Part shown: positions 38,977 through 62,880 of the stretch, piece after piece
Position numbering within the stretch: position 1 is the first letter of the stretch
Layout: each line of letters starts with the position of its first letter
DNA from: Streptomyces sp. TN58
GTDB lineage: Bacteria; Actinomycetota; Actinomycetes; Streptomycetales; Streptomycetaceae
DNA length: 64,000 nucleotides
Assembly (NCBI RefSeq): GCF_001941845.1
Contig: NZ_CP018870.1
Span: forward strand, 6,362,001-6,426,000
Reading direction: 5' to 3'
Program-made: the position numbers and the translations under genes
Notes under the pieces: generated by a model
What the model saw: the letters and a program-made list of their open reading frames with translations, nothing else
What the model was told of the DNA's origin: nothing
Database searches by the model: none

Positions 38977-38996
38977 GGATGCCTCCGGGGGCCGGG

Positions 38997-40256
38997 TCAG
39001 AACCAGTTGACGGTGAGCGGGAACGCGGCCGTGGCGGTCCTGCCCGCGGAGTCGGTCGCCGTCGCGGTGACCTGCACCGTGCCGACGGACCATGGCCGCC
39101 CGCCGATCCGGCCGGTGGCAGCGTCGACGCTCAGCCCCCAGGGCAGACCGGCGGCCGCGTACCGGACGGGTGGAGTGCCGCCGGTGGCGCTGAGCGGGAT
39201 GGTGCAGGACTGGTTGAACTTGCAGGTCCGCGGGCCCGGGTCGGCCAGCTGCAGACCGCCCGAGGTGGGGGTGGGGGTGGGTGTGGGAGTGGGGGTCGGC
39301 GTGGGCGTGGTCGAGGTCTCGAACACCTCGGTGATCGGCTGGACGTTCGCCGCGTTGCCGGCATGCGTGGCCGTACCGAAGAGGTCCTCGAACGTCCGCA
39401 GCAGATGGTGGTGGTTGTAGGCCGTGGCGTACTTGCCCGTCCTGACCTTCGCGCCGTGGAAGACGGTCGCGATCTGGTTCGACCCCAGGTAGTTGTCCTC
39501 GTCCCAGGTGAGCACCAACAGGCTGTTGTTGGCCTTCGCCCACTGCGCGTAGGCGTCGAGGTTGCTCCTCGTCCAGGTGTCCCCGGTGCCGACGGAGCAG
39601 GAGTGCATGTCGTTGCACTGGTCGGGGATCACGAAGGACAGGTGGGGCAGCGCCGCGAAGTCGTTCTGCGGGAACTGCGCCCACGTCTTGCCCGTGTTCA
39701 GCGGAACGTTCCTGAAGGCGAACCACGGGTTGTGCTTCTGCGCGTACCGGCCGCTCGTGCAGGCTGTCGAACCCTCGCCCGGCAGGCCCTCGTTGTATGT
39801 CGCGAAGGTCTTGCCGGCCGCGATGAGCTCCTGTCCGAGGTTCGGCGTCGTCATCGACTGCGGGGTGTAGCAGCCGTCGCCCGTGATGCCCTGGGTGGAT
39901 CCGGAGAAGAGGTTGAAGTAGTTCGGCTGGCTCGGGTGGGTGAGCGCCTTCATACCGGTCAGGCTCGCGCCTGCGTTCGCCAGCTGGTTGATGTACGGGG
40001 CGTTCGCACTCCCGATGATCTCCCCGTACTGCTTGTTCTCGTACACGACCACCACGACGTGGTCGTAGGAGGGCAGGGCCGCCGCTGCCGGGGCGGCCGA
40101 ACCGTGCTCGGCGGCCTGGGAGCCGGCCACGGTGAAGGCACCGAGCAGGCCGAGCGTGCCGATGCCGGCGACGACCGCGGACCACCGGGGGCGGCGTCCC
40201 CGGCGCGCCGCCGGTGAGGGTGGGTGCGGGGGCATGGGGATTCTCCTGGTGGGCAT
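38997..40256 (-). CDS. Secreted acid phosphatase/phosphoesterase (PF04185-type) with PT linker and Ig-like domain
   Basis: About 419 residues. Signal peptide at about 20-48 (WSAVVAGIGTLGLLGAFTVAGSQAAE). The phosphoesterase domain (60-310) has VVVVYENKQYGEIIG, the catalytic-Thr region THPSQPNYFNLFSG, LTWDEDNY and YNHHHLLRTFEDLFG, as in AcpA/phospholipase C relatives. A TSTTPTPTPT linker leads to a C-terminal putative Ig-type domain (about 335-419, KFNQSCTIPLSATGG...YAAAGLPWGLSVDAATG). Two ATGs (40256 and 40235) lie within a duplicated start region, each with its own ribosome site, so the start is ambiguous by 7 codons. The protein likely releases phosphate or splits phospholipids outside the cell. 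Confidence 0.87.
   Translation of the reverse strand: MPTRRIPMPPHPPSPAARRGRRPRWSAVVAGIGTLGLLGAFTVAGSQAAEHGSAAPAAAALPSYDHVVVVVYENKQYGEIIGSANAPYINQLANAGASLTGMKALTHPSQPNYFNLFSGSTQGITGDGCYTPQSMTTPNLGQELIAAGKTFATYNEGLPGEGSTACTSGRYAQKHNPWFAFRNVPLNTGKTWAQFPQNDFAALPHLSFVIPDQCNDMHSCSVGTGDTWTRSNLDAYAQWAKANNSLLVLTWDEDNYLGSNQIATVFHGAKVRTGKYATAYNHHHLLRTFEDLFGTATHAGNAANVQPITEVFETSTTPTPTPTPTPTPTPTSGGLQLADPGPRTCKFNQSCTIPLSATGGTPPVRYAAAGLPWGLSVDAATGRIGGRPWSVGTVQVTATATDSAGRTATAAFPLTVNWF
39264..39310 (-). repeat. Proline-threonine linker repeat
   Basis: A degenerate hexanucleotide array, read on the minus strand as repeats of CCCACN, encodes the alternating Pro-Thr linker of the secreted phosphoesterase. Confidence 0.8.
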
Positions 40257-40352
40257 GGGGACTCTCCTCGTCGTTCTCGTTCTCGTTCTCGCTGCGGCGT
40301 CTCGTCGTCGGTGTTGTCGGTGGTGGCTCGTACGGCCGGGGGAGCGAGGCGG

Positions 40353-41354
40353 TCATTCCTCGCGTCGGGCCGCTCCGGCCACGGCGATGTTCAGGAAGCG
40401 CGGTACCGGCCGCCCCCGGTCGCGGAAGTCCTCCGCGACCGCCGACCGCGCCGCCGCCAGCCGTTCCCCGGGCAGCAGCACCAGCACGCTCCTGCCCGGC
40501 CGCGGCCCGGGCGGCCAGGCGCTCAGCGCCCCCGCCCGGCGGGCGCAGGACACCGCCCTGGCCAGCTCCCGGGGGCGGTCCGCGGCCTCACCGCGCACGG
40601 CCATCAGCACCAGCCTCGACCCGGACGCCACCGGATCGAAGGCGACGTACCGCCGCCGACGCGGCCGAGCCCCCAGCAACAGGGCCCGGCCGGGCCGGGC
40701 GTGGAACACGGCCCGGCGCAGACCGTCGTCCCCCTGCGGCAGCGCCTCGGCCAGCAGCCGGGCGAGCAGCAGCCGGTCCGGGCGCTCCCGCGCTCCCGCG
40801 TGCACGTCGGCGACCGCCAGCGCCACCGCGCAGTCGGCCGGTTCCGCCGTCGCCAGTCCGGCCGCGTCCGTGAGCGAGCCCTGTACGTGCAGGTCCGTCC
40901 CGCCGCGGCCGTATCCGGCGCGAGCCAGTGCGCGCAGTACGGTGTACGGCCGGACCGCCCAGGCGGGAGCGTCGGGCAGCGGCCCGGACAGGGTGAGCGG
41001 CAGGTCGCAGCTGTCCGCCGGATGTCCGAGGGAACTGAGCCGTACCAGGCCGTCGTCGCGGGGGGCCGCCGCGGCGGCGGTCGGCCAGCCGGCCGCGGCG
41101 ACGAGCCCGGGAGAACCGAGCCGGAAGGCGTACGGTGCGCTCCACACCGCCGCGGGGGGCCGGCCGTGCGCGGCCTCCAGCGCGTAGGCGACCAGACGGA
41201 ACAGGGGATCGGCGGTGGCCCGCCGAGCCAGGTCGCCTCCGGCGGGGCCGTCCGATCCGCCTCCGGCTGGGCTCACCTGCGGGGCCGCCGGTGCCGCCGT
41301 GGCCGCCGGAACCCCCGCGACCGGGGGCGCGGCCGACCCGGTGCGGCCGGTCAC
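40353..41354 (-). CDS. Degenerate galactokinase-like (GHMP superfamily) protein
   Basis: 333 residues from GTG 41354, overlapping the previous stop by 4 bp; last gene of the lipid-synthase operon. The domain order follows galactokinases: SAPYAFRLGSPGLVAAAGWPTA where PGR-(I/V)-NLIGEHTDY is expected, SLTDAAGLATAEPADCAVALAVADVHAG where the PxxxGLSSSAA ATP loop is expected, then FHARPGRALLLGARPRRRRYVAFDP and a C-terminal VLVLLPGERLAAARSAVAEDF. The core ATP-binding Gly-Ser residues and the GEHTDY signature are missing, so kinase activity is unlikely or altered. Its fixed place in a glycolipid-type operon suggests a sugar-binding or regulatory role. Confidence 0.6.
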   Translation of the reverse strand: MTGRTGSAAPPVAGVPAATAAPAAPQVSPAGGGSDGPAGGDLARRATADPLFRLVAYALEAAHGRPPAAVWSAPYAFRLGSPGLVAAAGWPTAAAAAPRDDGLVRLSSLGHPADSCDLPLTLSGPLPDAPAWAVRPYTVLRALARAGYGRGGTDLHVQGSLTDAAGLATAEPADCAVALAVADVHAGARERPDRLLLARLLAEALPQGDDGLRRAVFHARPGRALLLGARPRRRRYVAFDPVASGSRLVLMAVRGEAADRPRELARAVSCARRAGALSAWPPGPRPGRSVLVLLPGERLAAARSAVAEDFRDRGRPVPRFLNIAVAGAARREE

Positions 41355-43204
41355 CGGGCGTCCTTGCGGGCCAGCAGCCGATAGGCGTTGCCTCCGTCCG
41401 TGCGGCGGGCGACGGCCGTGCGGACGGCGTCCAGCGCCGCCGCGCCCGCCAGGCACGGCAGCGCCGCCAGCCGGACGGCACTGGCCACGGCCCGGGTCCG
41501 GCGCGTGGCCGGCGGACCCCACGGCCGGTCCGGGTCGGGGGCCAGCCGCGCCGCCGTGAGGGCCACCGCGCCGAAGAAGTCGTTGCCCTGGTGGGCCGGA
41601 CCGTGTTCCTCGGCCACGACGGTGAACCCCCGGTCGGCCAGCGCCTCACGCAGGTTCGCGGCGGGGGCGAGGTGCTGGTGCTGCGGCTGGAACCACGGCA
41701 GCCACGCCGGGCCGAGGAGCCGGGCCATCCGCGACTCCGGGTCGGGCACCTCGATCGCCAGGAACCCGCCGGGGCCGAGGACGGTGGCAGCCGCGTCCAG
41801 TTCGGCGAGCGGATCCCGGGTGTGCTCCAGGTAGTGGTACATGCTCACCACCTCGTACTGGCCCGCCAGCTTCGGGGCGAACTCCGGGAACTGGCCCTGG
41901 TACCCGGTCTCCACCCAGCCGCGCCGCTCCGCCTCCCGGACCCCGCCGCCCATGTCCAGCCCGTCGAACCGGGTACGCGGCCACACGGCCCGCGCCGCGT
42001 TGCAGAAGTGCCCGTGGCCGGTGCCCACGTCGAGCCAGGACACCGGGTCCGCGTGGGGGAGGAGCATCTCGGCCCGCCCGCGGTAGGCGGCGCCCTGGCT
42101 GCCGAAGACGGTGCCGGCGCCCTCACCGCCGCGCCCGTCGTAGAAGTCGCGGTAGTAGAAGTCCAGTCCCTCCGGGGTCAGCCGCGGGTTCTGGAAGACG
42201 TGCCCGCAGTCCGCGCACTGCTCCAGGGTGAACCGGCCGGGCTTGCCCTGGAGCAGATCGGGCACCCGGACGCGGACCGAGAGCCGGGCGGAGCCGCACC
42301 ACGGGCAGTCCGGACGCCGCGCCTCCAGGAAGCGGTCCGTTCCCGCGGCCAGGTCCTCCCCGTAGGCGGCCGCCCGCGCTTCGTCCGGAGCGTCGTCCCG
42401 CCCGGCCGCCCGCGCCGTACGCAGACCCGACCCGAGGGAGCGCACCGGCCTGGCGGCGGTGGCCCGGACCAGGTCGGCCGGCCGCAGCGGCGAGCCGGAC
42501 CCGCCCAGCACCAGGTACGGCTGGAGCCAGTACAGCCCGGCCGCCGCCGCACCCCACCGGCCCTGGCGTACGGCGACACCCGCCAGCAGAGCCAGGCCGC
42601 CCAGCTGCGCGGCGGCCAGCACACCCGGCGGCAGCCCCTGGGCCCGCAGCTCCGCGGCCCGCGCCGGCCCGCCGGAGTCCGCGGGGCCGCCACAGCTCAG
42701 GCCGGGGGCGACGGCCAGACCCGTCGCGTCCGCCGCGTACTCCTTCAAACGGCGTGTCAGCGCCAGCAGTTCCGCCGGGCCCGGACGCGGTCCGGCCGGG
42801 TCCACACCGGCCCGCTCCAGCACCTCCTCGGTGGCCAGGACGGCGAAGCCGGCACCGCGCCCCTCGCCCAGCCGGTCCCACCGGTAGCGCGCGGGGTCGA
42901 CCAGGCGCAGCAGCCCCAGCGCCCGCTCGGCGGCCAGGTCCGCGGGCAGCAGGTCCAGCACCCGCAGCCCTTCGCCCTCCGCGTACGCGCAGGCGGCGAG
43001 GAAGGTCGCCGGATCGGGATCGACCCCGTCGGCGGTCAGCAGCCGCCACCCGGCGGGCCGCGGCACCCCGGCCGACGTGGGCGGCACCACCGGCAGTACG
43101 GGCAGCGACCGCAGCCGGAGCGCGGCGCGCACGGTGCCCGCGCCGAGGGCGGCCAGCAACATCGCGGAGGTCCAGCGGACCCCGGTGCGCGGAGGGTGCG
43201 TCAT
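41351..43204 (-). CDS. Zinc-ribbon SAM-dependent methyltransferase with N-terminal membrane-associated domain
   Basis: 617 residues, overlapping both neighbours by 4 bp. The first ~270 residues contain a hydrophobic start (SAMLLAALGAGTVRAAL), a domain of uncertain type (GVDPDPATFLAACAYAEGEGLRVLDLLPADL, vaguely glycosyltransferase-2-like) and a hydrophobic pair (VLAAAQLGGLALLAGVAV; AAAAGLYWLQPYLVL). A four-cysteine zinc ribbon follows (DCPWCGSARL...EQCADCGHVF near 305-345), then a class I methyltransferase with WLDVGTGHGHFCNAA as the SAM loop and YHYLEHTRDP. It probably methylates a sugar or lipid intermediate at the membrane. No clear homologue is known for the N-terminus. Confidence 0.72.
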   Translation of the reverse strand: MTHPPRTGVRWTSAMLLAALGAGTVRAALRLRSLPVLPVVPPTSAGVPRPAGWRLLTADGVDPDPATFLAACAYAEGEGLRVLDLLPADLAAERALGLLRLVDPARYRWDRLGEGRGAGFAVLATEEVLERAGVDPAGPRPGPAELLALTRRLKEYAADATGLAVAPGLSCGGPADSGGPARAAELRAQGLPPGVLAAAQLGGLALLAGVAVRQGRWGAAAAGLYWLQPYLVLGGSGSPLRPADLVRATAARPVRSLGSGLRTARAAGRDDAPDEARAAAYGEDLAAGTDRFLEARRPDCPWCGSARLSVRVRVPDLLQGKPGRFTLEQCADCGHVFQNPRLTPEGLDFYYRDFYDGRGGEGAGTVFGSQGAAYRGRAEMLLPHADPVSWLDVGTGHGHFCNAARAVWPRTRFDGLDMGGGVREAERRGWVETGYQGQFPEFAPKLAGQYEVVSMYHYLEHTRDPLAELDAAATVLGPGGFLAIEVPDPESRMARLLGPAWLPWFQPQHQHLAPAANLREALADRGFTVVAEEHGPAHQGNDFFGAVALTAARLAPDPDRPWGPPATRRTRAVASAVRLAALPCLAGAAALDAVRTAVARRTDGGNAYRLLARKDAR

Positions 43205-44373
43205 GTCAGCTTCTCCAACCGGTCGGCCGCGGCGGCGGCCCCGCCCGCCGCGGCGAATGAGGCCTGAATCCGCCGGGCGGCCCGGCGCGGGCCGGGGTCG
43301 TCCAGTACGGAGGTGAGCGCGTCGCGCAGTTCCTCGGCCCGGGTCCTGCCGAACCGGACCCGGATCCCCGCCCCGGCCTCGACGACCTGGCGTGCCACGA
43401 TCGGCTGGTCGTCCCGGATGGGTGCGACGACCAGCGGCAGCCCGTGCGCGAGGGTTTCACAGACGGTGTTGTGCCCGGCGTGGCAGACCACCGCGTCCAG
43501 GTGCCGCAGCAGCTCCAGCTGCGGCACGCTCTCCTGGAGCAGTACGTGGTGTGGCACCTTCCCGACCACGGTGGCCGGCGCCGCCAGCACCAACTGCACC
43601 TCGTCGGCGAGCCGTTCTGCGGCGCCCAGTACCGCGTCGTAGAACCGGGCCCCGGCCTCCTGGTTGAGGGTGCCGAGGGAGACCAGCACCCGCCGGCGCG
43701 CCGGGTCCAGGCGGTGCCAGGGGAAACCGGGCGAGGCCGGACGGGCCCCGAACGCCGGACCGACGTACGCGTGGTGGGCGGGGAACTCCCCAGCGGTTCC
43801 CACCAGTTCGGGTGTGGAGAAGACCAGGACCAGCCGCTCGGAGAACCGCGGGTCCCACTCACGCCCCTCGCGGCCCGCGACGCCGTGCTCGGCGAGCAGG
43901 CCGGAGATCTGTCCGGCCACCCACTCCCCTACCTTGGGGAAGTCCGCGAAGGGACGGGTCAGTTCGGCCGAGGTGCTGGCGGAAGTGGCCCAGGGGACGC
44001 CGAGCCGCCGGGCGACCAGCGGCCCGGCCAGAGCCTGCTGGTCGGCGACCACCACATCCGGTCCGAAGGCGCGCACGGCGCGCTCCACGCCCGGCACCAT
44101 CGCCCGGGCCAGCGGCACCAGCGCCTCCTCCCACAGGAACCGCAGCGCACCCACCCCGCGCAGGTCGCGCCAGCGCTCGTGGAGTTCCCCGTACGCGCCG
44201 CCCGCCTCCTCGCCGGCGGGCAGGATCCGGGACCGCGCGGGCAGCAGCCGGCAGAGCGCGGCGGCCGGGCCGGTCCAGGCGATCTCGTGCCCGCGGGCGG
44301 CGAGTTCGCCGCCGACGGCCACGGTCGGATTGACGTGCCCGGCCAGCGGCGGCACGACGAACAGCACCCTCAT
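43201..44373 (-). CDS. GT1/UGT-type glycosyltransferase
   Basis: 390 residues. MRVLFVVPPLAGHVNPTVAVGGELAARGHEIAW is the acceptor-domain start of GT-B macrolide/ceramide-type glycosyltransferases. The donor site VVCHAGHNTVCETLAHGLPLVVAPIRDDQPIVA matches the H-x-G-x-x-T/S...E-x-x-x-x-G-x-P PSPG-like motif that holds the nucleotide sugar. It probably adds a sugar to the lipid made by the upstream synthases. Start ATG 44373 overlaps the hydrolase stop; the stop overlaps the methyltransferase ATG. Confidence 0.87.
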   Translation of the reverse strand: MRVLFVVPPLAGHVNPTVAVGGELAARGHEIAWTGPAAALCRLLPARSRILPAGEEAGGAYGELHERWRDLRGVGALRFLWEEALVPLARAMVPGVERAVRAFGPDVVVADQQALAGPLVARRLGVPWATSASTSAELTRPFADFPKVGEWVAGQISGLLAEHGVAGREGREWDPRFSERLVLVFSTPELVGTAGEFPAHHAYVGPAFGARPASPGFPWHRLDPARRRVLVSLGTLNQEAGARFYDAVLGAAERLADEVQLVLAAPATVVGKVPHHVLLQESVPQLELLRHLDAVVCHAGHNTVCETLAHGLPLVVAPIRDDQPIVARQVVEAGAGIRVRFGRTRAEELRDALTSVLDDPGPRRAARRIQASFAAAGGAAAAADRLEKLT

Positions 44374-45239
44374 GGGACCAGAGCTCCCGTCCGCGGCGGG
44401 CCCGCTGTGGCTGTCCCTGTCGCCGTCCCTGTCCCTGTCGCCGTCGCCGTCGCCGTCGAGGCGAGGTGGGCGAGCACGGCCTCCCGCAGGGACCCGCTGC
44501 TCTCCTTGAGAACGTCGTGCCCCAGGCCCGGCAGGATCCGCAGCGCGCAGCGGGGCGCGTGGCGGGCCAGCTCGCGCGCCCCGGGCACCAGCTCGGAGTG
44601 CTCCCCGCAGACGATCAGGGCCGGGCAGTCCAGCCGGGCGTAGTCCTCCGGGGTGAAGGGGCGGCTCGCGGCCACGTCGTCGATGAGCGAGGTGCGGTTG
44701 AGGAGGGCGTCGGCGACGGCCGTCAGGTTGGCGGCCTTGCGCAGGCGCAGGGTGCGCAGCTCGGCCGGTACCGGACTGTCCTCCAGGCTGAGGGCGGCGG
44801 CCGACAGGGTGTCCGCCATGTTCTCCACCCAGGTCCCGCTGAGCGGGGGTTCCAGCAGGGTGAGACCGCTGACGAGTCCGGGCCGGGCCAGTGCGGCGTG
44901 CAGGGCGAGGGTCCCGCCGTAGCTGTTGCCGACCAGGTGTACGCGGCGGTGCCCCAGGCCGAGGGCGCCGAGCAGGGCGAGCAGGTCGCGTACGGCGGTG
45001 CGGCTGTCGTAGCCGGTGGCGGGGCGTTCCGTGCGGCCGTGGCCCCGCAGGTCGTAGAGGACGGCCTCATGGCCGGCCCTGGCCACCGGTACGGCCAGCG
45101 GGCAGTAGAAGGAGGAGAGGTTGTCGACGACCAGGCCGTGCAGGAACACCACGACGGGACGGTCGGGCGCGTCGGCGCCGGCGGCGGCCGGGAGCCGCTG
45201 GACATGGAAGCGGAGGGAGTTGGCGAGGACGACGGCCAT
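44370..45239 (-). CDS. Alpha/beta-fold hydrolase, probable release/editing thioesterase
   Basis: 289 residues from ATG 45239, 7 bp after the ACP stop. Alpha/beta hydrolase features: oxyanion HGLVVDN near 34, LYDLRGHGRTERP, nucleophile elbow GNSYGG with S106, and GLGHD with H241. The usual acid position in the GxxD block is occupied by Ser (CGEHSELVPG), so the acid must lie elsewhere. The C-terminus ends in an Ala-Thr/Gly-Thr low-complexity tail encoded by GTC-rich tandem DNA (about 44400-44460). Position between ACP and glycosyltransferase suggests it frees the finished acyl chain from the ACP (inference). Confidence 0.78.
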   Translation of the reverse strand: MAVVLANSLRFHVQRLPAAAGADAPDRPVVVFLHGLVVDNLSSFYCPLAVPVARAGHEAVLYDLRGHGRTERPATGYDSRTAVRDLLALLGALGLGHRRVHLVGNSYGGTLALHAALARPGLVSGLTLLEPPLSGTWVENMADTLSAAALSLEDSPVPAELRTLRLRKAANLTAVADALLNRTSLIDDVAASRPFTPEDYARLDCPALIVCGEHSELVPGARELARHAPRCALRILPGLGHDVLKESSGSLREAVLAHLASTATATATGTGTATGTATAGPPRTGALVP

Positions 45240-45246
45240 CGCGCGC

Positions 45247-45567
45247 TCAGCCCGCTGTCGCGGACGGGCCGCCCGCCGCCACCCGCGCCAGGGACGCCTG
45301 GGTGACCCGGCCGATGTGGGAGACGAGTTCGCCGACGGACATGGCCAGGATGGCATCCATGTCCTTCTCCGCGAGGAAGCCCATCAGGTCCACGTCGGCG
45401 CCGTAGCGATGGTGGAGCAACTCGGCGAGGGCGACGAACTCCACGCTCTCCAGGGCGAGGTCCTCGTTGAACGTCGTCTTCATCGTGACCTCCTCCGCGA
45501 GGAGGTACTCGTCGCCGACGATCTCCACGAGCATGCCGGTGATCTCGGCGAGGATGTCAGGTGCCAT
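45247..45567 (-). CDS. Acyl carrier protein
   Basis: 106 residues. Four-helix ACP with the phosphopantetheine serine S41 in EDLALESVEFVALAELL (family pattern D-x-x-x-x-S-x-x). The C-terminus has a 25-residue Ala/Ser/Gly tail. It starts inside the last codons of the second synthase (11-bp overlap, ATGGCACCTGA), so the two are translated together. It may be a second carrier to which chains are passed before release, in addition to the embedded ACP of the first synthase. Confidence 0.9.
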   Translation of the reverse strand: MAPDILAEITGMLVEIVGDEYLLAEEVTMKTTFNEDLALESVEFVALAELLHHRYGADVDLMGFLAEKDMDAILAMSVGELVSHIGRVTQASLARVAAGGPSATAG

Positions 45568-48500
45568 GGCGGGTCTCCGTGAGGTGGAAGGGGGCGGCGG
45601 GCGGCGCCGCCGGGGGGCGGGGGGTCCAGGCGACGACGTGGTCGGGCGCGGTGTCGGCGAGCGGGGCGGGGGAGCCGGGAAGCATGGTGGTGCGGACCGG
45701 GTACGCGGTGCCGTCGGGAGACGTCACGACCAGCCCGCCGGGATCCGGTTCGCCGGCCACCCGCCAGTCGCGGGGGCGGCCGCCCAGCCCGGTGCCGGCC
45801 GCCTTCGCCGCGGCCTCCTTGGCGCACCACAGCGCGGTGAGGGCGGCGGAGTGCCCGTGCGCGGCGGGCCGTTCGGCGTGCTGTCCGGCCAGGCGTTCGG
45901 CGAGCCTTTCGGCGAGGCGGAGTTCGCCCGGTACGAGGGCGATCCGGACCAGCGCGTCGGGGTCCGCGGTCACCGATTCGACGTCGATGCCGACCGGGCG
46001 GCCGCCGGGGTGGGCGAGGGCGACCGCGATCCGGTCCTTGTGGGAGATCGACAACCGGAAGCCGCGGGTCAACGGCCCTTCGGCCACCGGCCTGCCGGCC
46101 GGATCGCTGCCGACCGGCACCTCGGCCGGGAACACCGGCCCGGCACCGGCGTCCCAGAGCAGCCCGCGCAGCGCGTCCTTGGCCGCGATCCGGCCCAGCA
46201 GCCAGGGCGCCCGGGCCCGCGGCGTGAGCCGCTCGTACACCTCCCGCTCGGCGGCGCCCAGGTACCGGCGCATCACCAGCTCCTGCGAGGCGGGATCGCT
46301 CCAGCGGCGCCGCGCCAGGCACCAGCCCTCCGGCCGGGGCTCGCCGATGCCACAGACCTCCGGGGTGAACTTCATCGGCCAGACCCGCTCGTCGGCGCCG
46401 AAGCGACGGTACGTCCACCCCTCGATCCGGGCCCACACCTCCCCGCCGGGCCGGCACAGCTCGACGTCCCCCCGTACGGTGACGTCCTCCACGGCACGGA
46501 TCCGGGCGGTCGCGGACACCAGCTCCTGGGGCGCCGGAGGCGCCCCGTGGAACCGGACGCGGTCCACGGCGGCCGGGAACACCAGCCGGTCCACCGGGAG
46601 CCGCAGCTGCATCCAGTGCCCGAAGAGCTGCCCGGCGGCGTCGAGGAGCGCACCCGGGTCGGGCAGGGCCCGCAGCACGCCCTGGATGCCGTCCGAGCCG
46701 ACCGTCCGGACCTCGTGCACCCCGGCGAAACGCGGACCGTGGAACATCCACCGGTCGCGGTAGAGAGCCGCCGCGCTCACGGGGGCCGGCCCGGCGTCGC
46801 GCAGCGGCGTGCCGTCGGGGGAGGGCGGCGCCCCGTACCGGTCGGCGAAGAGCACGACCACCGAGGCGTATGCGCCGAGCGTGACGCGCACCCGGCCGGG
46901 CCCGTCCGGGCGGACGGAGACCCGGACGTCGACGGCCGGCTCGACGGCGAGCCAGCGCAGGGCCCGTACGTCCTCGAAGCCGACGACGGCGAGGCTGGCC
47001 GGGGCGTACCGCCGGGCGGCGTCGGCCGCCAGCTCCAGCATGGTGGTCATGGGCACCACGGGGAACCGGTCGGAGTCCTCCGCCCAGCCGTCGGGCTGCA
47101 GGTACACGCAGTGGTCGCGGACGTAGGGCAGCGCGGCGAGGGAGAGCCGCAGCGTCCGCGTCCCGCCGACGCCCGCCCCGGGGCCCGGCCCCGCTCCCGG
47201 CCCGGTCACCCGCTCAGGCGCGGGGTTCAGCCCCGTGCCGGGGGTCTCCGCCTCCGGTTCGGGCCTCCGGCCCGGTCCCGGCTCGGCGGCCGCGCCCGTC
47301 TCGGCCCAGGCCTCGGCCACGGCACGGGCGGCCGCGTCGGTGTCGGCCAGGACCGCGTCCAGCGCGGACAGCAGCACCGGCCGGTCCGCGGGCGGGGCCG
47401 CCGGAGCCGGGGTGAGGAGTCCGGCCAGGGAGGCCCGGGCCGGGCCGCCCAGCCGTACGAGGGGCGACCCGAGGTCCAGCGGAACGGTACGCCCCTGGCC
47501 GGCGCCCAACGGGCTCTGCCCGCCCCCGCCCTTCGGTGCCCCGATCCCGGCTGCGGCACCGGCCCGGGACCCCGCCGAGCCCCCCGCGGGGAACGGCGCG
47601 CGGCCCTCCGTCCAGAGGGCGGCGCGGGCGCGGTCGAGGGCCGCGAGCCCGCTCAGCCGGGGCGAGGAGGCCGACACCGACAGGTGGGGGCGGTCGCGGA
47701 GGGTGTCCTCGACGAAGCCCGGCAGGCTCCCCGGGCCCAGGGTGACGAAGGTCCGCACGCCCTCCTCCTCGTACAGGGCCGTGACGAGTTCGCGGAAGCG
47801 GACCGGCTCCAGCAGGTGACGCACCACCAGGGAGCGGACGTCCTCCGGGGCCGACGGGAACGGCGCGCACGTCGTCGCCGACCACACCGGGAGCGAGCCG
47901 GGCCCCGGCGGCAGCCGGTCGAAGGCCGCCCGGACCTGGCCGAGGTACGGCTCCCACATGGGGGTGTGGAAGCCCGAACGGAACGGCAGCTCCTGCCCGA
48001 GGACCCCGTCGGCGCGCAGACGGGCCACCACGGCCGCCACCTGCTCCGGATCGCCGCAGACCACCGACTGGTGCGGGCAGTTGTCATGGCTGACCACCAC
48101 CCGGTCCATGCCGTGCAGCGCGGCCCGCGCCCGCGCCGCGCCGCACCCGAGCGCCGCGTACACGAGGTCGGGGACCCGCAGGTCGTCCGGGCGGAGCGAG
48201 TCCAGGAAGGTGTCGGCCGCCTCCTGCGGATACATGCCGGCGGCCACCATCGCCGCCCACTCGCCCAGGCTGTGGCCCGCCAGCACGTCGGCCTCGACGC
48301 CGAGGGCCGGCAGGACCCGGGCGAAGAAGCGGCCGGTCCCGATCGCGTCCAGGGCCCGCTCCACCAGCGACTCCCCGCGGGTGAGCCGGGGCGGCGCCAG
48401 CGCCAGCCGTGCCGCGACGTCGTCGACGACGGGCGCGAACTCCGGCTCCAGACCGGGGAACAGGAACGCCGCCCGGCCGCCCAGCGGCCGCGGCGCGAAC

Positions 48501-50221: not shown

Positions 50222-53200
50222 CGCCGCCCCCCTCGGCCGGCGCCGCTGCCATCAGGACGACCTGTACGTCGGCCCCGCGGGCCAGCTCGTCGAGGAACGC
50301 GGACGTGCCCGCGTCCGGCGCGAGGAGCGGGACACCACGCCGGGCGTAGGCGCGCTCCAGCTCGGGGGTGACCATCCCGCCCGCCTCGGCCGCCCAGGGC
50401 CCCCAGTCGATGCACAGCACCCGCCCGGGGAAGGACTCCGCCCAGCTGTGCGCGAGGACCGCGAGGGCGTCGTTGGCGGAGGCGTAGTCGCTCTGCCCGC
50501 GGTTCCCGTACACCCCCGCGACGCTCCCGAACAGGGCGAGGAAACGGGGCGCGGGGCACGATCCGTGCTCGGCGGCCGCGGCGGCCAGGTGTCGGGCGCC
50601 GGACACCTTGGCGGCGAACACCTCGGCGAAGTCCGCCGGCCGCTTGTCGCGCAGCAGCCCGTCGCGCAGGACGCCGGCGCCGTGCACGATGCCGTCGAGC
50701 CGTCCGTGGCGCTCCCGTACGTCGGCCACGACCGCCCGTACGGCGCGCTCGTCGGTGACGTCCGCGCAGTGGTAGCGGACGGAGGCCGCCGCGTCGGCGA
50801 GGACGTCGAGGGAGGCCCGTACCTCCCGCTCGGCGAGCACCCGGGAGGCCGCGGCCTCGATCTCGGCGGGCTTGCGCAGGCCGGAGGCGATCAGGGCGGC
50901 GCGCAGGGCGACGCGGTCCTGGGCCTGTCCGAAGGCTTCCCCGGCGGTGGAGGACAGGGGGGTGCGCCCGACGAGTTCGATGTGGCATCCGGTGGCGCGG
51001 GCCAGGGCGAGCGCGGTGCGGGCGGTGATCCCGCGGGCCCCGCCGGTGAGGAGGACGACCGAGCCCGAGTCCAGGAGGGCGGGCCGGGGGCCGGGGCCGT
51101 CGGCGGCGGGCAGGGGAGCGGGCACCGGGCGGCGGGCGACGCGGGCCCCCTCGGGGGTGTAGCCGACGGAGGCGGGGCCGTCCGGGCCGGCCGAGGCGAG
51201 TTCGGCGACGAGCTGCGAGGCGACGCGCTCCGGGTCCTCCTTGGGGTGGACGTCCACCGAGCGCACCAGTGCGGCGGGGAATTCGAGTGCGGCGCTGCGG
51301 GCGAAGCCGTGCAGGCCGGCGCCGCCGGGGCCGCCCGAGGCGGCGACGAGCAGCAGCCGGGGGATCCCGCCGGTCAGGGCGTCGCGCAGGCTCGGGAAGG
51401 CTTCGGGCAGAACCGGCTCGGCGCCTGCCCGCAGCGAGGACAGGTCCACGACCCCGTCGAGCCCGGCCCCGGCCGCCCGCAGGACGCGCGGCTCGGCGCC
51501 CACGGCCTCCAAGGCGGCGGCGACCGCGGGCGCGAGCCCCTGGTCGTCCTCCACGATCCCGATCCGCAGGCCCGCCAGGGACGCCGGGTCGCCGTCGGGG
51601 GGCGGGACGGGGGACAGGTCGACACGGAGCCGGGCGACGGACGGGACGCGGCCGGCCGGCTCCGGATCCCAGGCCGGCGTCGGGGCCGCCGCGGGGGCCG
51701 TTGCCGGCGCCGGTGCGCTGGGGTGCGGCTCGGCGGTCGGGGCGCCGGGGGCGTGGGCCACGACCCAGTCCACGATCGCGCGCAGGGTTTTGATCCGGGA
51801 CAGCTCCTCGACCGCGGACTCGGCGGAGCCGCCCGGGTCCTGGGGGAGGCCGATCCGGTCGGCGAGGGCTCCGATGATCTCCACGCGCTTGATGGAGTCG
51901 ATGGAGAGGTCGGCCTCCAGGTCCAGTTCGGGGTCGAGCATGTCCAGGGGGTAGCCGGTCCGGGTGTGGACGATCCCCAGGACCACGTCCATGACGTCTT
52001 CGGCGGAGCGGACGGAGGGGGGCGGGTCAGGGGACATGGCGGGGGACATGGCGGGGGACATGGCGGGGGACGGAGCGGGGTGGGGCGCCGAACGGTGCCC
52101 GGCGCCGGAGAGCCCGGCGGTGGCGCCTGCCGCGGTGGCTGACGCGGCGCCCGTCGCGGCGCCTTCGGCGGTGCGTCCGGCGGCGGTACGCCCACCGGCA
52201 CCGCCTTGCCCGTCGGCGGGCCCCGCGGAGCCCAGGTAGGCGAGCAGGATGTCGCGCTGGGACTCGACCAGGGCGCGGGTCCCGCGCAGGTACTCCAGCA
52301 CCGCCTCCTCGCGGCCCGGGCTCTTCCTCTCATCGGCCATCGCCGTCTCCTTCTGCTTCTCCTCGGCCGGATGGGTGTGGACGCGTCGGGCCGGGCGGAG
52401 GCCGCCCGGGACCGGGGTGCCGTCCGACGCGCGGACCAGGTGGCCGTCGACCAGCCAGCCCGGCCGGCGCGGAGGCAGGTCGGGCAGGCGCGAGGTGCGC
52501 CCCCGGAACAGCGCGTCCGGCTCCACCGGCACGCCCGCAGCCGCCAGTTCGGCCAGTGCCGTGACCAGCCGCACCAGGCCGTGCTCGCCCGGCACGTCGA
52601 GCGGCACCACCGTGTGGGGGCGCTCGCTCAGGATCCGGCCGACGAGTGCGGTCAGGACCCGGCCGGGCCCCGCCTCCACGAAGGTGCGCACACCGGCCGC
52701 GTACATGGCCTCCACCTGCTCCACGAAGCGGACCGGCTCCGCGACCTGGCGTGCGGCAAGGCCCCGTACGCCTTCGGCCGTCGCCGGATACCGGTCGGCC
52801 GTCGTGTTCGACCAGACCGGGACGCCCGGAGCGGTCACCGCCGTCTCCTCCAGCTCGGCGGCCAGCGCGGACGCCGCCCCCGCCACCACCTCGCTGTGGA
52901 ACGCGCAGGCCACCGGGATCGGCTCCGCCGACAGCCCTGCCTCCCGTAGCGCGGCCACCGCCGCGGCGACGCCCGCCGAAGGGCCGGAGATCACGCACTG
53001 CCGGGGCGCGTTGTGGTTCGCGACCACGCAGCCGGACCGGGCGGCGAGATCCCGTACCTCCCGCGGCGCGGCCGACACCGCCGCCATCGCCCCCGGATCC
53101 GCACCCGCCGCCGCCAGGATCGCCGTGGCGCGCCGCTCGCTCAGCCGCAGCAGGCTCGGCATGTCGTAGGCCCCGGCCGCCCACAGAGCGGTGAGCTCCC

Positions 53201-56200
53201 CGTACGAGTGCCCCGCCACGCAGTCCGGCCGTACGCCGAGCCGGCCGAGCAGCAGGTGCGCCGCCGCTCCCGCCAGGCCGAGGGCCGGCTGGGCCACCCG
53301 GGTGTCGGTGACCGCGGCCCGCTGCGCGGCCCGCCCCTCGGCGGTGAACGCGGCCGGCGGGAACATGGCCGACACCACTTCCGGCGGAGCGGTCTCCAGC
53401 AGGCCGCGCAGCGCGGGGAAGGAGGTGAACAACCCGCCCAGCATGCCGGGGCGCTGGCTGCCCTGGCCGGGGAAGAGGAACGCCACGCCGCCCGGCTCCG
53501 CTCCCTCCGGCCTTACGTGGACCCCGTCGCCCGGAGTGAAGGACCGGGCCCGTTCCAGCCGGGCCGCCAGCTCGTCCAGGCCGGAGGCCACGACGGCCAC
53601 CGCCACCGGGCCGGTCCCGTCGGAGGCCGTCTCCGCCGCGAGGTCCCGCAGGGCCCACGGCCGCCCGGCCGTGTCGTTCTGCTCCAGGCGCGCCGCGAGC
53701 CGCGCCATCGCGCGGGCCGCCGACCGCCGGTCCGTGCCGCGGAAGCAGAACACCTCGGCCGGCCACTCCTCCAGCCCGTGCCGGGGCTCGTCCGCGCCCC
53801 CGTACCCGGCCAGCACCGCGTGGTAGTTGGTACCGCCGAAGCCGAAGGCGCTCACCCCAGCGACACGGCGCCGCGCGGGCACGGCCCAGGGCCGGGCCTC
53901 GGTGTCGAAGGAGAAGGGGCTGCTCTCCGGCCGCCAGGCCGGGTTCGGGGTGTCGATGTGGAGGGTGGGCGGGCGGACGCCCGCGTGCACGGCCCGGGCG
54001 GCCTTGATCAGCCCGGCCAGTCCGGCCGCGCATTTGGTGTGCCCGACCTGTGACTTGACCGAACCCAGCGCGCAGGCCCCGGCGGTGGCCCCCGATGCGG
54101 TGAACAGGTCGCCCAGCACGGTCAGTTCGGTGCTGTCGCCCACCACGGTGCCGGTGCCGTGCGCTTCGACGAGACCGACGTCGGCCGGAGTGACGCCCGC
54201 TCGGGCGTACGCCCGTTCCAGGGCCCGCCGCTGGCCCTCGGGGCGCGGGGCGGTCAGCCCCAGGGACCTGCCGTCACTGGCGGCTCCCACCGCCTTGACC
54301 ACGGCGTAGACCCGGTCGCCGTCGCGTTCGGCGTCCGCCAGCCGCTTCAGCACCACGGCGCCGACGCCCTCGCCGAGGGCGATCCCGTCGGCGGCGGTGT
54401 CGAAGGGCCGGCAGCGGCCGCCGGGGGACAGCGCGCGGACGGACGCGAACATCAGGTAGTCGTTGATGCCGTTGTGCACGTCGGCTCCGCCGCACAGCAC
54501 CATGTCACTGTCCCCGTCGCGCAGTTGGCGGCAGGCGAGGTCGAGCGCGGCGAGGGAGGAGGCGCAGGCGGCGTCGACGGTGCAGTTCGCGCCGCCGAGG
54601 TCGAGCCGGTTGGCGACCCGGCCGGCGATGACGTTGGCGAGGATCCCGGGGAAGGAGTCCTCGGTGAGTCTCGGCAGCTGCTCGTCCAGCCCGGCCGGGA
54701 GGCCCCCGAGGTAGGCGGGGTACAGGGCGCGCAGCCCGTAGGCGCCGGCCAGTTCGGTGCCGGCCTCCGCGCCGAAGACCACCGACGTCCGGGAGCGGTC
54801 GAAGGCGCGGTCTCTTCCGTAGCCGGCGTCGTCGAGGGCCCGCGCGGAGATCTCCAGGGCCAGCAGCTGCACCGGCTCGATCGCCGGCAGGGAGGCGGGC
54901 GGGATGCCGTGCGCGAGCGCGTCGAAGGGCACGGGGGCGAGGAAGCCGCCCCAGCGGGAGGGCGTGCGCTCCCCGGCCCGGGCCGGATCGGCGTCGTAGT
55001 AGAGCGCCGGGTCCCAGCGTTCCGCCGGCACCTCGGTGACCGCGTCCGTCCCGGAGAGGACCATCGCCCAGTAGGCGGCGAGGTCCGGCGCGCCCGGGTA
55101 CGCGCAGGCCATGCCCACGACGGCGATGTCGAGGGGGTCCGCCTCCGCCCGCGGTCCGCCACCCGCGGACAGTTCCCCGGCCCGCCGTTCCAGCCACGCG
55201 GCGGCGCCCTCGGTGACCTGGCCGTGCAGCTCGGCGACCGTGGTGGTCCGCGTGCGCAGGGCCGCCGCCTGGCCGAGCATGAACAGCCCGTCCGAAGCCT
55301 GCAGTTCCTCCGACACGGGGTGCGGTTCGCCGCCGCCGGGCGGCCGCCGCAGGCCCTTGCTCGCGATCCGCAGCCGGCCCAGGTTGAGCCGCTCCAGCTC
55401 CTCCCACATCTCGCGCGGTTCGGCTCCGCTCTCGGCGAGCCGCCGCCGGGTCGCCTCGAACGTCGCGGCGTACGGGGTGGACGCACAGCGGGTGGCGTGC
55501 CCGGGCGCGGTGTGCAGCAGCACGGTGTCCGTGCACTCCACCGCCGTCCGCTGGAAGCCGGGCAGTACCGCGCCCGCCGCCACGGCCTCCTCGGTGAACA
55601 GGTACGCGGTACCCATCAGCACCCCGACCCGCGCTCCCCGCGCGGCCAGCGGGGCCGCGGCCGCCACCGCCATCGCGGCGGACCGCTCGTCGTGGATGCC
55701 GCCCGCGAGCAGCACGTCCAGGGCGGCCGGGTCGGGGCAGGAGCGCAGCAGCAGCTCGATCTGCTCGTCCCAGAGGGGGAAGGAGGCACGCGGTCCGACA
55801 TGCCCGCCGCACTCCAGGCCCTCGAAGACGAACCGCCGCGCCCCTTCCGCCAGACACCGCTCCAGCAGGCCCGGTGAGGGCACGTGCAGGTGCGTGCGGA
55901 TTCCGGCCGCCTCCAGCGGGGCGGCCTGCGCCGGGGTGCCGCCGGCGATGACCGCGTACGGGGGGCGGGCCTCGGCCACGGCCGCGAGCTGCTCCCGCCG
56001 CAGCTCGGGCGGGGCGAAGCCGAGCAGGCCCACGCCCCACGGGAGGTCGCCGAGCCGCTCGGCGGTCTCGGCGAGGAGCCGGCGTACGTCCGCGCCCGGC
56101 GTCACGGCCAGCGCGAGGTAGGGGACTCCGCCCGCGGCGGCGACCGCCTCGGCGAAGGCCGGACGGTCGCTCACCCGGGTCATCGGTCCCTGCGCGACGG

Positions 56201-57137
56201 GCAGCGGCTGCCGGAGGGGCGCGGCCCGCACGGCGTCCGCCAGATGCCCGGTCACGGCTTCCCGTACGGCTCGCAGCACGCCCCCGGTGCTGCGGTGGCG
56301 GGCGGCCAGCCGGGCCGCGAAGGCGCCGTCCTGCCCGACGGGCAGGAGCTGCGTGCGCAGGTTCCGGGCGCCGAGCAGGGCGGGTACCGCCCCCTCGGGC
56401 GGGGTCAGGTCGGGGCGTGCGAACACCCGGTGCCCGTCCAGGAGCCGGGTCTGTGACCCGTCCATCGACCGCAGCGCCGAGGCCACCTCGTACGGCAGAT
56501 CGGCCTCGCCCTCGACGGTCAGGGCCAGTTGTACGTCGAGCAGTACCCCGGCGGCCCCGCCCGCGACGGCGGCGGCCGCCGTGTGCGGCCCGATCCCGCC
56601 GAGCGCCAGCACGGGCACCGCGATCGCGGGATCCCCGAGGAGCTGCTGGAGCAGTACGAAGGTGGTGCTCCCGCCGACCCGGCCGCCGGCCTCGTGCCCC
56701 TTGGCGACGAGCGAGAGCGCGCCCGCCGCCGCGGCGGCGGCGGCCTCCGCCGGGCCGGTGACCTCCGCCCAGACGCGGGGCCGGCCCGCCGCGGCGGCCC
56801 AGGCGGCCACCTGCCCGGGCGTGAACGACGCGGGGTCGGCGAGCAGCACCGTGTCCACCTGCGCGGGGAGGTCCCCGGGGCCGAGGGGGCAGTGGGCGGG
56901 GATCCGCACCCCGTGCCGGCCCGCGCTCGCGCCGGGGGCGCCGGAGGCACTGCCGAGCCGGCGGCCCGTCTCGGCGAGCGCGCGTCGGGCGGCGTCCGCG
57001 TCCCGCCCGAGATCGAGCAGCCCGAGGGCCCCGGCCCGTTCGGCGGCGGTGACGATCGCCGGGCCGGGCTCCTCGAAGGGGGAGACCGCGACGACCAGGT
57101 CGCGTGCGGCAGGGGGCTGTGGGGGGTGGGGTATCAC
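50214..57137 (-). CDS. Type I secondary-lipid synthase PfaD-like(x2)-KS-AT-ACP-KR
   Basis: 2307 residues. GTG 57137 is chosen because GAGGAG lies 6 nt upstream; ATG 57167 has none. Two nitronate-monooxygenase/PfaD-like barrels come first: about 12-240 (VAKGHEAGGRVG, VLALGGIG) and about 305-600 (FEGLECGGHVG, VLLAGGIH). Then KS 668-1110 (C858, H993, H1033), AT 1215-1510 (S1311 in GHSYGE, H1414 in CAFH, suggesting malonyl-CoA), ACP about 1710-1800 (S1748 in LSIDSIKRVEI, the PUFA-synthase signature) and KR about 1850-2300 (TGGARG, S2205, Y2218). PfaD is the separate flavin enoyl reductase of PUFA systems, so its fusion here gives a full reductive set. Likely iterative, making a long acyl chain. 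Confidence 0.88.
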   Translation of the reverse strand: MIPHPPQPPAARDLVVAVSPFEEPGPAIVTAAERAGALGLLDLGRDADAARRALAETGRRLGSASGAPGASAGRHGVRIPAHCPLGPGDLPAQVDTVLLADPASFTPGQVAAWAAAAGRPRVWAEVTGPAEAAAAAAAGALSLVAKGHEAGGRVGGSTTFVLLQQLLGDPAIAVPVLALGGIGPHTAAAAVAGGAAGVLLDVQLALTVEGEADLPYEVASALRSMDGSQTRLLDGHRVFARPDLTPPEGAVPALLGARNLRTQLLPVGQDGAFAARLAARHRSTGGVLRAVREAVTGHLADAVRAAPLRQPLPVAQGPMTRVSDRPAFAEAVAAAGGVPYLALAVTPGADVRRLLAETAERLGDLPWGVGLLGFAPPELRREQLAAVAEARPPYAVIAGGTPAQAAPLEAAGIRTHLHVPSPGLLERCLAEGARRFVFEGLECGGHVGPRASFPLWDEQIELLLRSCPDPAALDVLLAGGIHDERSAAMAVAAAAPLAARGARVGVLMGTAYLFTEEAVAAGAVLPGFQRTAVECTDTVLLHTAPGHATRCASTPYAATFEATRRRLAESGAEPREMWEELERLNLGRLRIASKGLRRPPGGGEPHPVSEELQASDGLFMLGQAAALRTRTTTVAELHGQVTEGAAAWLERRAGELSAGGGPRAEADPLDIAVVGMACAYPGAPDLAAYWAMVLSGTDAVTEVPAERWDPALYYDADPARAGERTPSRWGGFLAPVPFDALAHGIPPASLPAIEPVQLLALEISARALDDAGYGRDRAFDRSRTSVVFGAEAGTELAGAYGLRALYPAYLGGLPAGLDEQLPRLTEDSFPGILANVIAGRVANRLDLGGANCTVDAACASSLAALDLACRQLRDGDSDMVLCGGADVHNGINDYLMFASVRALSPGGRCRPFDTAADGIALGEGVGAVVLKRLADAERDGDRVYAVVKAVGAASDGRSLGLTAPRPEGQRRALERAYARAGVTPADVGLVEAHGTGTVVGDSTELTVLGDLFTASGATAGACALGSVKSQVGHTKCAAGLAGLIKAARAVHAGVRPPTLHIDTPNPAWRPESSPFSFDTEARPWAVPARRRVAGVSAFGFGGTNYHAVLAGYGGADEPRHGLEEWPAEVFCFRGTDRRSAARAMARLAARLEQNDTAGRPWALRDLAAETASDGTGPVAVAVVASGLDELAARLERARSFTPGDGVHVRPEGAEPGGVAFLFPGQGSQRPGMLGGLFTSFPALRGLLETAPPEVVSAMFPPAAFTAEGRAAQRAAVTDTRVAQPALGLAGAAAHLLLGRLGVRPDCVAGHSYGELTALWAAGAYDMPSLLRLSERRATAILAAAGADPGAMAAVSAAPREVRDLAARSGCVVANHNAPRQCVISGPSAGVAAAVAALREAGLSAEPIPVACAFHSEVVAGAASALAAELEETAVTAPGVPVWSNTTADRYPATAEGVRGLAARQVAEPVRFVEQVEAMYAAGVRTFVEAGPGRVLTALVGRILSERPHTVVPLDVPGEHGLVRLVTALAELAAAGVPVEPDALFRGRTSRLPDLPPRRPGWLVDGHLVRASDGTPVPGGLRPARRVHTHPAEEKQKETAMADERKSPGREEAVLEYLRGTRALVESQRDILLAYLGSAGPADGQGGAGGRTAAGRTAEGAATGAASATAAGATAGLSGAGHRSAPHPAPSPAMSPAMSPAMSPDPPPSVRSAEDVMDVVLGIVHTRTGYPLDMLDPELDLEADLSIDSIKRVEIIGALADRIGLPQDPGGSAESAVEELSRIKTLRAIVDWVVAHAPGAPTAEPHPSAPAPATAPAAAPTPAWDPEPAGRVPSVARLRVDLSPVPPPDGDPASLAGLRIGIVEDDQGLAPAVAAALEAVGAEPRVLRAAGAGLDGVVDLSSLRAGAEPVLPEAFPSLRDALTGGIPRLLLVAASGGPGGAGLHGFARSAALEFPAALVRSVDVHPKEDPERVASQLVAELASAGPDGPASVGYTPEGARVARRPVPAPLPAADGPGPRPALLDSGSVVLLTGGARGITARTALALARATGCHIELVGRTPLSSTAGEAFGQAQDRVALRAALIASGLRKPAEIEAAASRVLAEREVRASLDVLADAAASVRYHCADVTDERAVRAVVADVRERHGRLDGIVHGAGVLRDGLLRDKRPADFAEVFAAKVSGARHLAAAAAEHGSCPAPRFLALFGSVAGVYGNRGQSDYASANDALAVLAHSWAESFPGRVLCIDWGPWAAEAGGMVTPELERAYARRGVPLLAPDAGTSAFLDELARGADVQVVLMAAAPAEGGGGE
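52031..52069 (-). repeat. 12-bp tandem repeat encoding a Ser-Pro-Ala-Met linker
   Basis: GGGACATGGCGG recurs in tandem about three times just before the ACP domain of the large synthase, encoding repeated SPAM units (residues about 1690-1702) in a flexible linker. Confidence 0.85.
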
Positions 57138-57630
57138 AAGCGCTCCTCTTCCAGTGCTGTGTGACATGACGCATGGCAGGACGGAAGAACGGGAGAACGA
57201 ACGAGCCGGCGGACGGCGAACCGCGGGCGGCGGGCTGCGGGCGGCGATCGGGCGGGCGGGGCGGCACGGCCGGGTGGCGCGAAGGGTTGAACAACGGTCA
57301 AATCCCCGGGCGCCGCGATGCATCGTGCGGGGCCCGCTGTGCACTGTCAACAACCATGCGGAGTAAGGCAGTTCGCATTATCGGCACCCCGGGACCGCCC
57401 CGCGTGCTCCGCCCCCGGGCCTACGCCCCGCCCCCGCCGAGCCGGTGACCTGCGGCGATCAGAGACCCGTCGGGGCCGGACCACCGCCCGGGCCGACGTG
57501 CCGCGAACGCGGGGGCATGCCGCACCGGTATGCGTGGCCGCCCCCCGGGCATGGACGGCACGCCCACTTCGGGAAGTTGTTCACGGGACGGGCCCTTACG
57601 GGTACGGCCCCGCGAGGTTACCGTCCGGTC
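57138..57630. promoter_or_regulatory. Divergent control region between the synthase operon and the LysR gene
   Basis: A 493-bp spacer without a supportable gene. The segment 57285-57390 is AT-richer than its surroundings. It holds TTGA-N7-TCAA (57287-57301), a LysR-type T-N11-A inverted repeat, and a related TGTCAACAACCA farther right. Promoters for the leftward operon and the rightward regulator should lie here. An open extension of the LysR frame back to 57445 is not used as coding. Confidence 0.6.
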
Positions 57631-62873: not shown

Positions 62874-62880
62874 CGCCCGG

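Follow-up and report, generated by a model that had tools for sequence, protein, structure and literature searches.

The genome of Streptomyces sp. TN58 contains a compact run of seven minus-strand genes that, together with a divergent LysR-family regulator gene, probably forms a single operon making a glycosylated and methylated secondary lipid. We examined this operon in a 64,000-nucleotide stretch of DNA (hereafter the window; positions 6362001–6426000 of the 7.59-Mb single-contig genome, NZ_CP018870.1), in which open reading frames (ORFs) and a codon-model gene call place the seven genes at 40353–57137. They encode, in order, two large polyketide synthase (PKS)-type proteins, PKS1 and PKS2, a free-standing acyl carrier protein (ACP), an alpha/beta hydrolase, a glycosyltransferase, a methyltransferase and a galactokinase-like protein. 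An initial annotation, made from the sequence alone, had described seven genes on one strand joined by 4- to 11-bp overlaps and a single 7-bp gap, and this layout was borne out: from PKS1 to the galactokinase-like gene, the junctions are an 8-bp overlap, an 11-bp overlap, a 7-bp gap and three 4-bp overlaps. PKS1 starts with a GTG at 57137, preceded by GGAAGAGGAG. Judged by PKS2, the closest named relative is Streptomyces virginiae (87% identity).

Conservation of the operon and its promoter-like site

A scan of genome contigs with PKS2 gave 154 matches, of which the best 80 represent 70 distinct loci (numbered with L; genomes with G): 38 in Streptomyces, Actinomadura or Yinghuangia, one in a Microthrixaceae metagenome-assembled genome and 31 in other groups. 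For the actinomycete tally we counted the 35 loci numbered L025–L065 in which one or more tailoring or regulator genes were found, which omits the short actinomycete loci L053, L056, L058 and L061 (no downstream gene found) and the distant L054 and L063. The ACP, hydrolase, glycosyltransferase, methyltransferase and galactokinase-like genes are all present, in order, in 30 of these 35 loci; among the exceptions, the sequence of L034, L041, L044 and L055 ends within the cluster, and the fifth, the Microthrixaceae locus L057, has a different gene order. The layout is thus found in other genomes as well, and because its order is retained in 30/35 loci, and a promoter-like site recurs with it, chance clustering is ruled out.

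The LysR-family regulator (57631–58524, plus strand; Pfam HTH_1 and LysR_substrate) is likely the pathway regulator, and its divergent position is retained in the Actinomadura (59% identity) and Yinghuangia (51–52%) loci. Between it and PKS1 lies a minus-strand promoter-like site (57322–57350) consisting of TTGACA (57350–57345), a 17-bp spacer and CACGAT (57327–57322). The pattern TTGACA-N16..19-CA[CG]GAT was present in 24 of 26 LysR–PKS1 intergenic regions (the window plus 25 loci with a LysR match), with CAGGAT as the variant in L052, and was not found in the intergenic regions of L037 and L041. Searching all 25 loci on both strands (1,173,200 bases) returned 23 matches, the same 23 that lie in their intergenic regions; the window adds one. 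Yinghuangia keeps the site though most of its operon proteins are only 33–72% identical. As a consensus match rather than a mapped start site, it provides good evidence for a single transcription unit. Of 23 cases examined, only two, the window and its nearest relative, have an inverted repeat (ATGCG-N13-CGCAT) upstream of the site.

Related arrangements occur beyond these loci. A six-gene form, PKS1-PKS2-ACP-hydrolase-glycosyltransferase-methyltransferase, is found in other Streptomyces at 36–59% identity (L105–L108, L111, L114 and L117, where PKS1 lies partly or wholly outside the stretches), without the galactokinase-like gene and without the N-terminal domain of the methyltransferase; a whole annotated copy resides on an 869-kb linear, mobilizable plasmid of Streptomyces (L142). 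In genomes of group f3/g3, PKS1-PKS2-ACP-hydrolase-glycosyltransferase is accompanied by a divergent methyltransferase gene, with L168 ending before the glycosyltransferase. A glycosyltransferase and a methyltransferase therefore accompany the synthase in three lineages: the seven-gene form, the six-gene form and the f3/g3 genomes. A query with the dehydratase (DH)–phosphopantetheinyl transferase (PPTase) part of PKS2 had strong matches in 20 of 61 related genomes, namely 13 of 37 from the same genus (its own included) and 7 of 14 from family f3; a further weak match in G017 brings the tally to 21. In genome G012 (L103, L172; C1:8102216–8159084) the cluster is split, with the N-terminal part of PKS1 at 8102216 and the C-terminal half of PKS2 with the ACP, hydrolase, glycosyltransferase and methyltransferase at ~8153000, preceded by genes that look by eye like housekeeping genes; this reflects either a rearrangement or an assembly error.

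A Pfa-related synthase with a tandem NMO pair

PKS1 (2307 aa; 50214–57137, minus strand) is a fused pfaD/pfaA-like protein with the order NMO-NMO-KS-AT-ACP-KR (KS, ketosynthase; AT, acyltransferase; KR, ketoreductase), Pfam itself returning NMO-KS-AT-ACP-KR. PKS2 (1554 aa; 45557–50221, minus strand) is a fused pfaBC-like protein in which Pfam finds KS-AT-DH-PPTase. To place the synthase we built two KS trees, one of 69 rows and a careful one of 46, for which the labels Type L (L145), canonical Pfa (L158), Type P (L144) and a 'modular' outgroup were assigned here from domain content, annotation or organism; no enediyne KS was included. Both window KSs group with Pfa-type KSs and are split from seven modular-type rows at 100/100 in the 46-row tree, with the same grouping in the 69-row tree. 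Within this clade the PKS1 KS falls among PfaA-type KSs (support 97; 98/97). Rather than joining the PfaC KS, the PKS2 KS forms its own branch (97; 99/96), shared with pfaBC-like KSs from Proteobacteria, a cyanobacterium and an acidobacterium. A KS phylogeny had been proposed as the check on the initial annotation, with grouping among modular PKSs as the outcome that would count against it; the KSs lie outside the modular-type rows in both trees, which rules out an origin from modular type I PKSs. As a separate observation, genome G000 carries a gene for a 1608-aa PKS (C1:997012–1001838; L115 10013–14839) that overlaps a preceding 830-aa gene, membrane-transporter-like by eye, by 4 bp; in the tree its KS sits on a long side branch that splits off deeply and lies apart from the modular rows.

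The complete set of KS, AT, ACP, KR, DH, enoyl reductase (ER) and PPTase expected in one locus was found, the ER being FabK-like, and active-site motifs were seen by eye for the KS, AT, ACP, KR, DH and PPTase. In PKS1 (all features on the minus strand) these are the KS at 53679–55130 with its active cysteine (DAACAS), the AT at 52530–53480 (GHSYGE), a single embedded ACP at 51846–51986, carrying the motif LSIDSIKRVEI that the annotation had highlighted, and the KR at 50391–51059 (PF08659). PKS2 (likewise minus strand) has its KS at 48758–50179, an AT at 47693–48319 (GHSLGE; the Pfam match covers profile positions 75–281 of 319), the DH at 46388–47152 (PF21089 and PF14765) and a built-in PPTase at 45728–45997 (PF01648; GIDVE, WCAKEAAAK). 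No KS–chain-length factor (CLF) pair was found in PKS2, whose one KS retains the active cysteine and is therefore not a CLF.

The N-terminal part of PKS1, previously called PfaD-like, is instead a tandem pair of NMO/FabK-type barrels. The second barrel (55356–56204, minus strand; EGLECGGHVG) matches PF03060 (NMO) with 59 bits and FabK (TIGR03151) with 105 bits, far under the latter's cut-off of 453, and is likely the enoyl reductase. The first (56268–57095, minus strand; limits approximate and set by eye) was recognised by a motif scan as KGHEAGGRVG; it lacks the histidine that the second barrel carries in its GGH. In NCBIfam, no PfaD-family model matched this part of PKS1 at E values up to 10, only FabK, whereas in a control the PfaD model TIGR02814 detected a 185-aa PfaD fragment of Streptomyces L145 with 145 bits. 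FabK is also the one clear ER match in Type P L143 and in Neptuniibacter L067, each with a second match at chance level. Among 54 PKS1 frames having the second motif (EGxECGGxxG), 38 carry the strict first motif (KGxE[AGS]GGxxG); a looser pattern adds six, which have R or W at the place of the histidine, and ten are missed. The residue at the place of the histidine in the 38 first barrels is R in 26, F in 6, W in 3 and L, P and Q in one each, and never H. Proteobacteria, a cyanobacterium and Type P synthases also have the NMO pair, and for this reason we regard the additional, histidine-less barrel as an old feature. It is presumably inactive.

These features divide the initial reading of a PUFA-like (polyunsaturated fatty acid) synthase. 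The KS trees uphold a self-contained, iterative Pfa/secondary-lipid type of synthase. The narrower assignment to PUFA synthases proper (PfaA–D) was rejected: PKS1 scores 887.9 bits against the PfaA model TIGR02813, short of its cut-off of 1010.1; the motif scan that finds one embedded ACP in PKS1 finds four in L145 and six in L158; and there is neither a CLF nor a PfaD-family ER. Canonical PUFA synthases (Persicobacter L158) and Type L (Streptomyces L145) share with the window a Pfa-clade KS and the ACP motif, but have tandem ACPs and a KS–CLF, as well as a separate PfaD in L145; the window combines a single ACP and two active KSs with a fused NMO pair and a PPTase. Type P synthases (Azotobacter ars; Beijerinckia L143; Methylosinus L144) resemble it in their tandem NMO domains before KS-AT-ACP-KR and in the FabK-type match, and window PKS1 aligns with the Beijerinckia protein at 43% identity over 76%; unlike the window operon, they consist of one large synthase with annotated KAS III-type genes (two in L143, one in L144). 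No type III PKS was found among the window genes scanned (36814–63742 except 62881–63915).

Two further systems could be compared by description only. A 2011 survey by Shulse and Allen distinguishes 20 types of Pfa-like clusters, among them the actinobacterial Type M (Actinosynnema, Frankia, Renibacterium, S. avermitilis), which has no known product (PMC3098273, in the portions accessible), and a fused pfaDA with a pfaBC bearing a PPTase is described as resembling the Renibacterium cluster in the accessible text of PMC13291983. The window shares this fused architecture with Type M but has a FabK-like rather than PfaD-family ER, and in its accessible part PMC3098273 makes no mention of a glycosyltransferase, methyltransferase, hydrolase or pseudo-kinase for Type M. 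Since the synthase type was listed as uncharacterised in 2011 and the arrangement has been noted in print, the suggestion that the product class is undescribed was too strong. The heterocyst glycolipid system (hglE, Type F) is alike in logic, joining a secondary-lipid synthase to glycosylation, but by the accessible description in PMC3098273 it is without a DH and serves heterocysts.

Tailoring genes, a pseudo-galactokinase and the operon boundary

The free-standing ACP (106 aa; 45247–45567, minus strand; DLALESVEF) scores below the Pfam cut-off (15.6 vs 20.8 bits) and is retained in relatives. The alpha/beta hydrolase (44370–45239, minus strand; PF12697, PF00561; GNSYGG) is likely a release or transfer enzyme; Pfam returned no hotdog-type thioesterase for any of the seven operon genes. 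The glycosyltransferase (43201–44373, minus strand) is MGT-like (GT1), with an EryCIII-like C-terminal domain (PF06722, above cut-off); its best NCBIfam model is TIGR01426 (178 bits, cut-off 260). The 617-aa methyltransferase (41351–43204, minus strand) consists of an N-terminal domain (residues 1–275) that matched nothing in Pfam or among PDB sequences, a CPWCG...CADCG pair and an S-adenosylmethionine domain (PF13489, Methyltransf_23). A methyltransferase with the same N-terminal domain, 52% identical over the whole protein, is encoded at L104 9509–11332 (genome G026, same genus), near a gene that looks by eye like a glycosyltransferase, a 2211-aa PKS and type II-like KS/ACP genes, with the lipid synthase pair not in the stretch. 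Compared with seven relatives, dN/dS is below 1 for the ACP, hydrolase, glycosyltransferase, methyltransferase and galactokinase-like genes (0.18–0.66); for the more distant pairs, synonymous sites approach saturation.

The last gene (333 aa; 40353–41354, minus strand), annotated as galactokinase-like, is homologous to galactokinases of the GHMP family but lacks their kinase motifs. A single-sequence match was below cut-off (E 4e-4) and no Pfam family matched above chance, yet a profile of 18 orthologues matched the PDB galactokinase 6tep at E 4e-21. The galactokinase motifs GEHTD, RxNxxG, GLSSS and GGGFGG were each found in 0 of 120 homologues (120 listed of 208), and all four are present in the genome's own galactokinase (989078–990151; 352 bits, model cut-off 509). 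A fifth pattern, GGxDQ, was likewise found in 0/120, but failed the control and was not used. The missing motifs speak against kinase activity in this predicted pseudo-galactokinase. Its dN/dS of 0.18–0.57 is within the range of the neighbour genes and indicates purifying selection, and we therefore consider it a maintained protein. Many of the homologues listed are named galactokinase in public records, a label at odds with their motifs.

Beyond the operon end lie genes for a phosphoesterase (38997–40235 or –40256), an MFS protein (37729–38976) and an SDR protein (36811–37719). We rejected these as core genes: a gap of 96–117 bp precedes the phosphoesterase in the window, and its downstream presence is not constant. 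Of the 30 loci that retain the complete five-gene tailoring set, 25 have a same-strand phosphoesterase gene called beyond the operon; in L059 one lies on the opposite strand 2.3 kb off, and the remaining four have no phosphoesterase call. Against a seven-gene boundary, the phosphoesterase start as called overlaps the galactokinase-like gene by 4 bp in L031, L033 and L038. The window phosphoesterase (38997–40256), next to the MFS gene, has an Ig-like domain and looks secreted by eye. An 875-aa ORF at 37729–40356 was also rejected; its initial portion, which overlaps the phosphoesterase gene in a different reading frame, was not called coding. Elsewhere in the window, a molybdopterin oxidoreductase gene (PF00174) adjoins an MpaB/rubber-oxygenase-like gene (PF09995) at 59867–63742, and a tRNA-Pro (GGG) lies at 2369–2443.

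The proposed product and its alternatives

From this gene content we infer the following pathway. PKS1 and PKS2 would act as one iterative Pfa-related synthase in which the ATs load malonyl units, the KSs condense them, and the KR, the DH and the second NMO/FabK-type barrel reduce, dehydrate and again reduce the growing chain, held on the embedded ACP after activation by the built-in PPTase. The finished chain would pass to the free ACP, from which the hydrolase would release or transfer it. The glycosyltransferase would then put a sugar on a hydroxyl or carboxyl group, and the methyltransferase would methylate the sugar or the aglycone. The pseudo-galactokinase may be a partner without catalytic function, perhaps a scaffold or a subunit that binds sugar. 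The decorated lipid proposed in the initial annotation thus stands as the best reading, with both decorating enzymes in a conserved operon beside a secondary-lipid synthase; its chemistry is predicted from the genes.

Several observations weigh against this proposal. The kinship of the PKS1 KS to that of phenolic-lipid Type P synthases (Beijerinckia, Methylosinus) is weak (82; 85/52), and a single embedded ACP with no CLF is unlike characterised PUFA synthases. The 7.7-kb Microthrixaceae locus L057 has a hydrolase and a glycosyltransferase after PKS2 but no match to the ACP, methyltransferase or galactokinase-like gene, and its order differs, with an NMO stretch after the glycosyltransferase. 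MGT-like glycosyltransferases occur as macrolide-inactivating enzymes too, and domain scans found no dedicated sugar-nucleotide gene in the operon. Finally, no product is on record, and chain length, unsaturation and sugar are not readable from the sequence.

The synthase might instead make a glycosylated iterative polyketide other than a lipid, such as a polyene, a pyrone or an enediyne-like core, which the glycosyltransferase and methyltransferase would decorate. We consider this unlikely, but it has some appeal: KS-AT-ACP-KR and DH-PPTase recall enediyne synthases, the glycosyltransferase resembles macrolide MGTs, and the L104 methyltransferase with the same N-terminal domain sits near a glycosyltransferase-like gene (by eye), a different PKS and type II-like KS genes. 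However, the ER-type barrel pair fused to PKS1 argues for reduced chains, the KSs group with secondary-lipid synthases (in trees without an enediyne KS), and the release gene encodes an alpha/beta hydrolase, none of the seven genes having matched a hotdog-type thioesterase. An enediyne synthase is a single KS-AT-ACP-KR-DH-PPTase protein with a hotdog thioesterase; the operon, with its two proteins, extra KS, AT and NMO domains and alpha/beta hydrolase, does not match it. Very improbable, in our view, is that the glycosyltransferase is a self-resistance enzyme inactivating an antibiotic made by the PKS pair. NF033129 and models of OleI-type macrolide-inactivating glycosyltransferases do match it, well under cut-off, and some loci have an MFS gene after the phosphoesterase gene, but the glycosyltransferase gene is in mid-operon with 4-bp overlaps to its neighbours and the MFS gene is outside the conserved core. 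The least probable of these readings is that the cluster supplies membranes with a plain PUFA or another free fatty acid, the glycosyltransferase, methyltransferase and pseudo-kinase serving something else. PKS1 resembles PfaA (888 bits), and the accessible literature refers to S. coelicolor SCO0124–0129, known here by description and not by sequence comparison, as an eicosapentaenoic acid cluster. Against this stand the score under the PfaA cut-off, the one ACP, the missing CLF and the single DH, and the glycosyltransferase and methyltransferase genes remain with the synthase across genera.

The glycosylated, methylated lipid can be set beside what accompanies the same synthase elsewhere. We searched 34 loci of other groups (including L057 and the Type P loci L143 and L144) with queries from L072, L087 and L089, which count themselves. 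A sulfotransferase-, sulfatase-like or type I phosphodiesterase relative was found in 24 of the 34, a hydrolase in 21 and a free ACP in 19, with no match in L054, L073, L143 and L144. These neighbours fit a lipid whose polar end is derivatised. The head-group genes lie within 10 kb, not all on the same strand; their link to it is likely where repeated across genera, each single locus being unproved. The synthase pair stands near sulfotransferase, sulfatase-like and phosphodiesterase-like genes in the Gram-negative loci L072, L074, L087, L088, L092 and others, pointing to sulfated or phosphorylated secondary lipids, and in Bosea L072 a gene with a PAPS-reductase domain, CysD-like by eye, lies nearby. 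These findings suggest that a common chain is combined with interchangeable polar ends, of which the actinomycete one would be glycosylated and methylated. More tentatively, an ancient core (NMO pair including the histidine-less barrel, two active KSs, built-in PPTase, often free ACP and hydrolase) may have been kept across phyla while its head-group set was swapped, sulfo or phospho in many Gram-negatives and glycosyl plus methyl in actinomycetes, and a catalytically dead galactokinase recruited in one actinomycete branch as a sugar-binding subunit steering the glycosyltransferase or the fused methyltransferase.

A literature search that left most subscription papers outside its reach found no paper naming a product of this gene set, nor the conserved decoration set in print. 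The promoter-like site, the histidine-less first ER barrel and the pseudo-galactokinase were not found in print either, no search having been aimed at these three by name. Papers on the S. coelicolor EPA-type (eicosapentaenoic acid) cluster, hglE-KS clusters and a Kutzneria PUFA-like cluster (PMC5932044, PMC6414726, PMC7324645, PMC2374992, PMC8510958, PMC4210621) do not mention the present gene set in their accessible text.

Having one conserved promoter-like site and a single regulator, the compact operon lends itself to deletion or expression as a whole, making the product question for uncharacterised actinobacterial secondary lipid synthases directly testable. Given the DH-PPTase matches in 13/37 same-genus and 7/14 f3 genomes, Streptomyces and related bacteria may commonly make this unnamed lipid.

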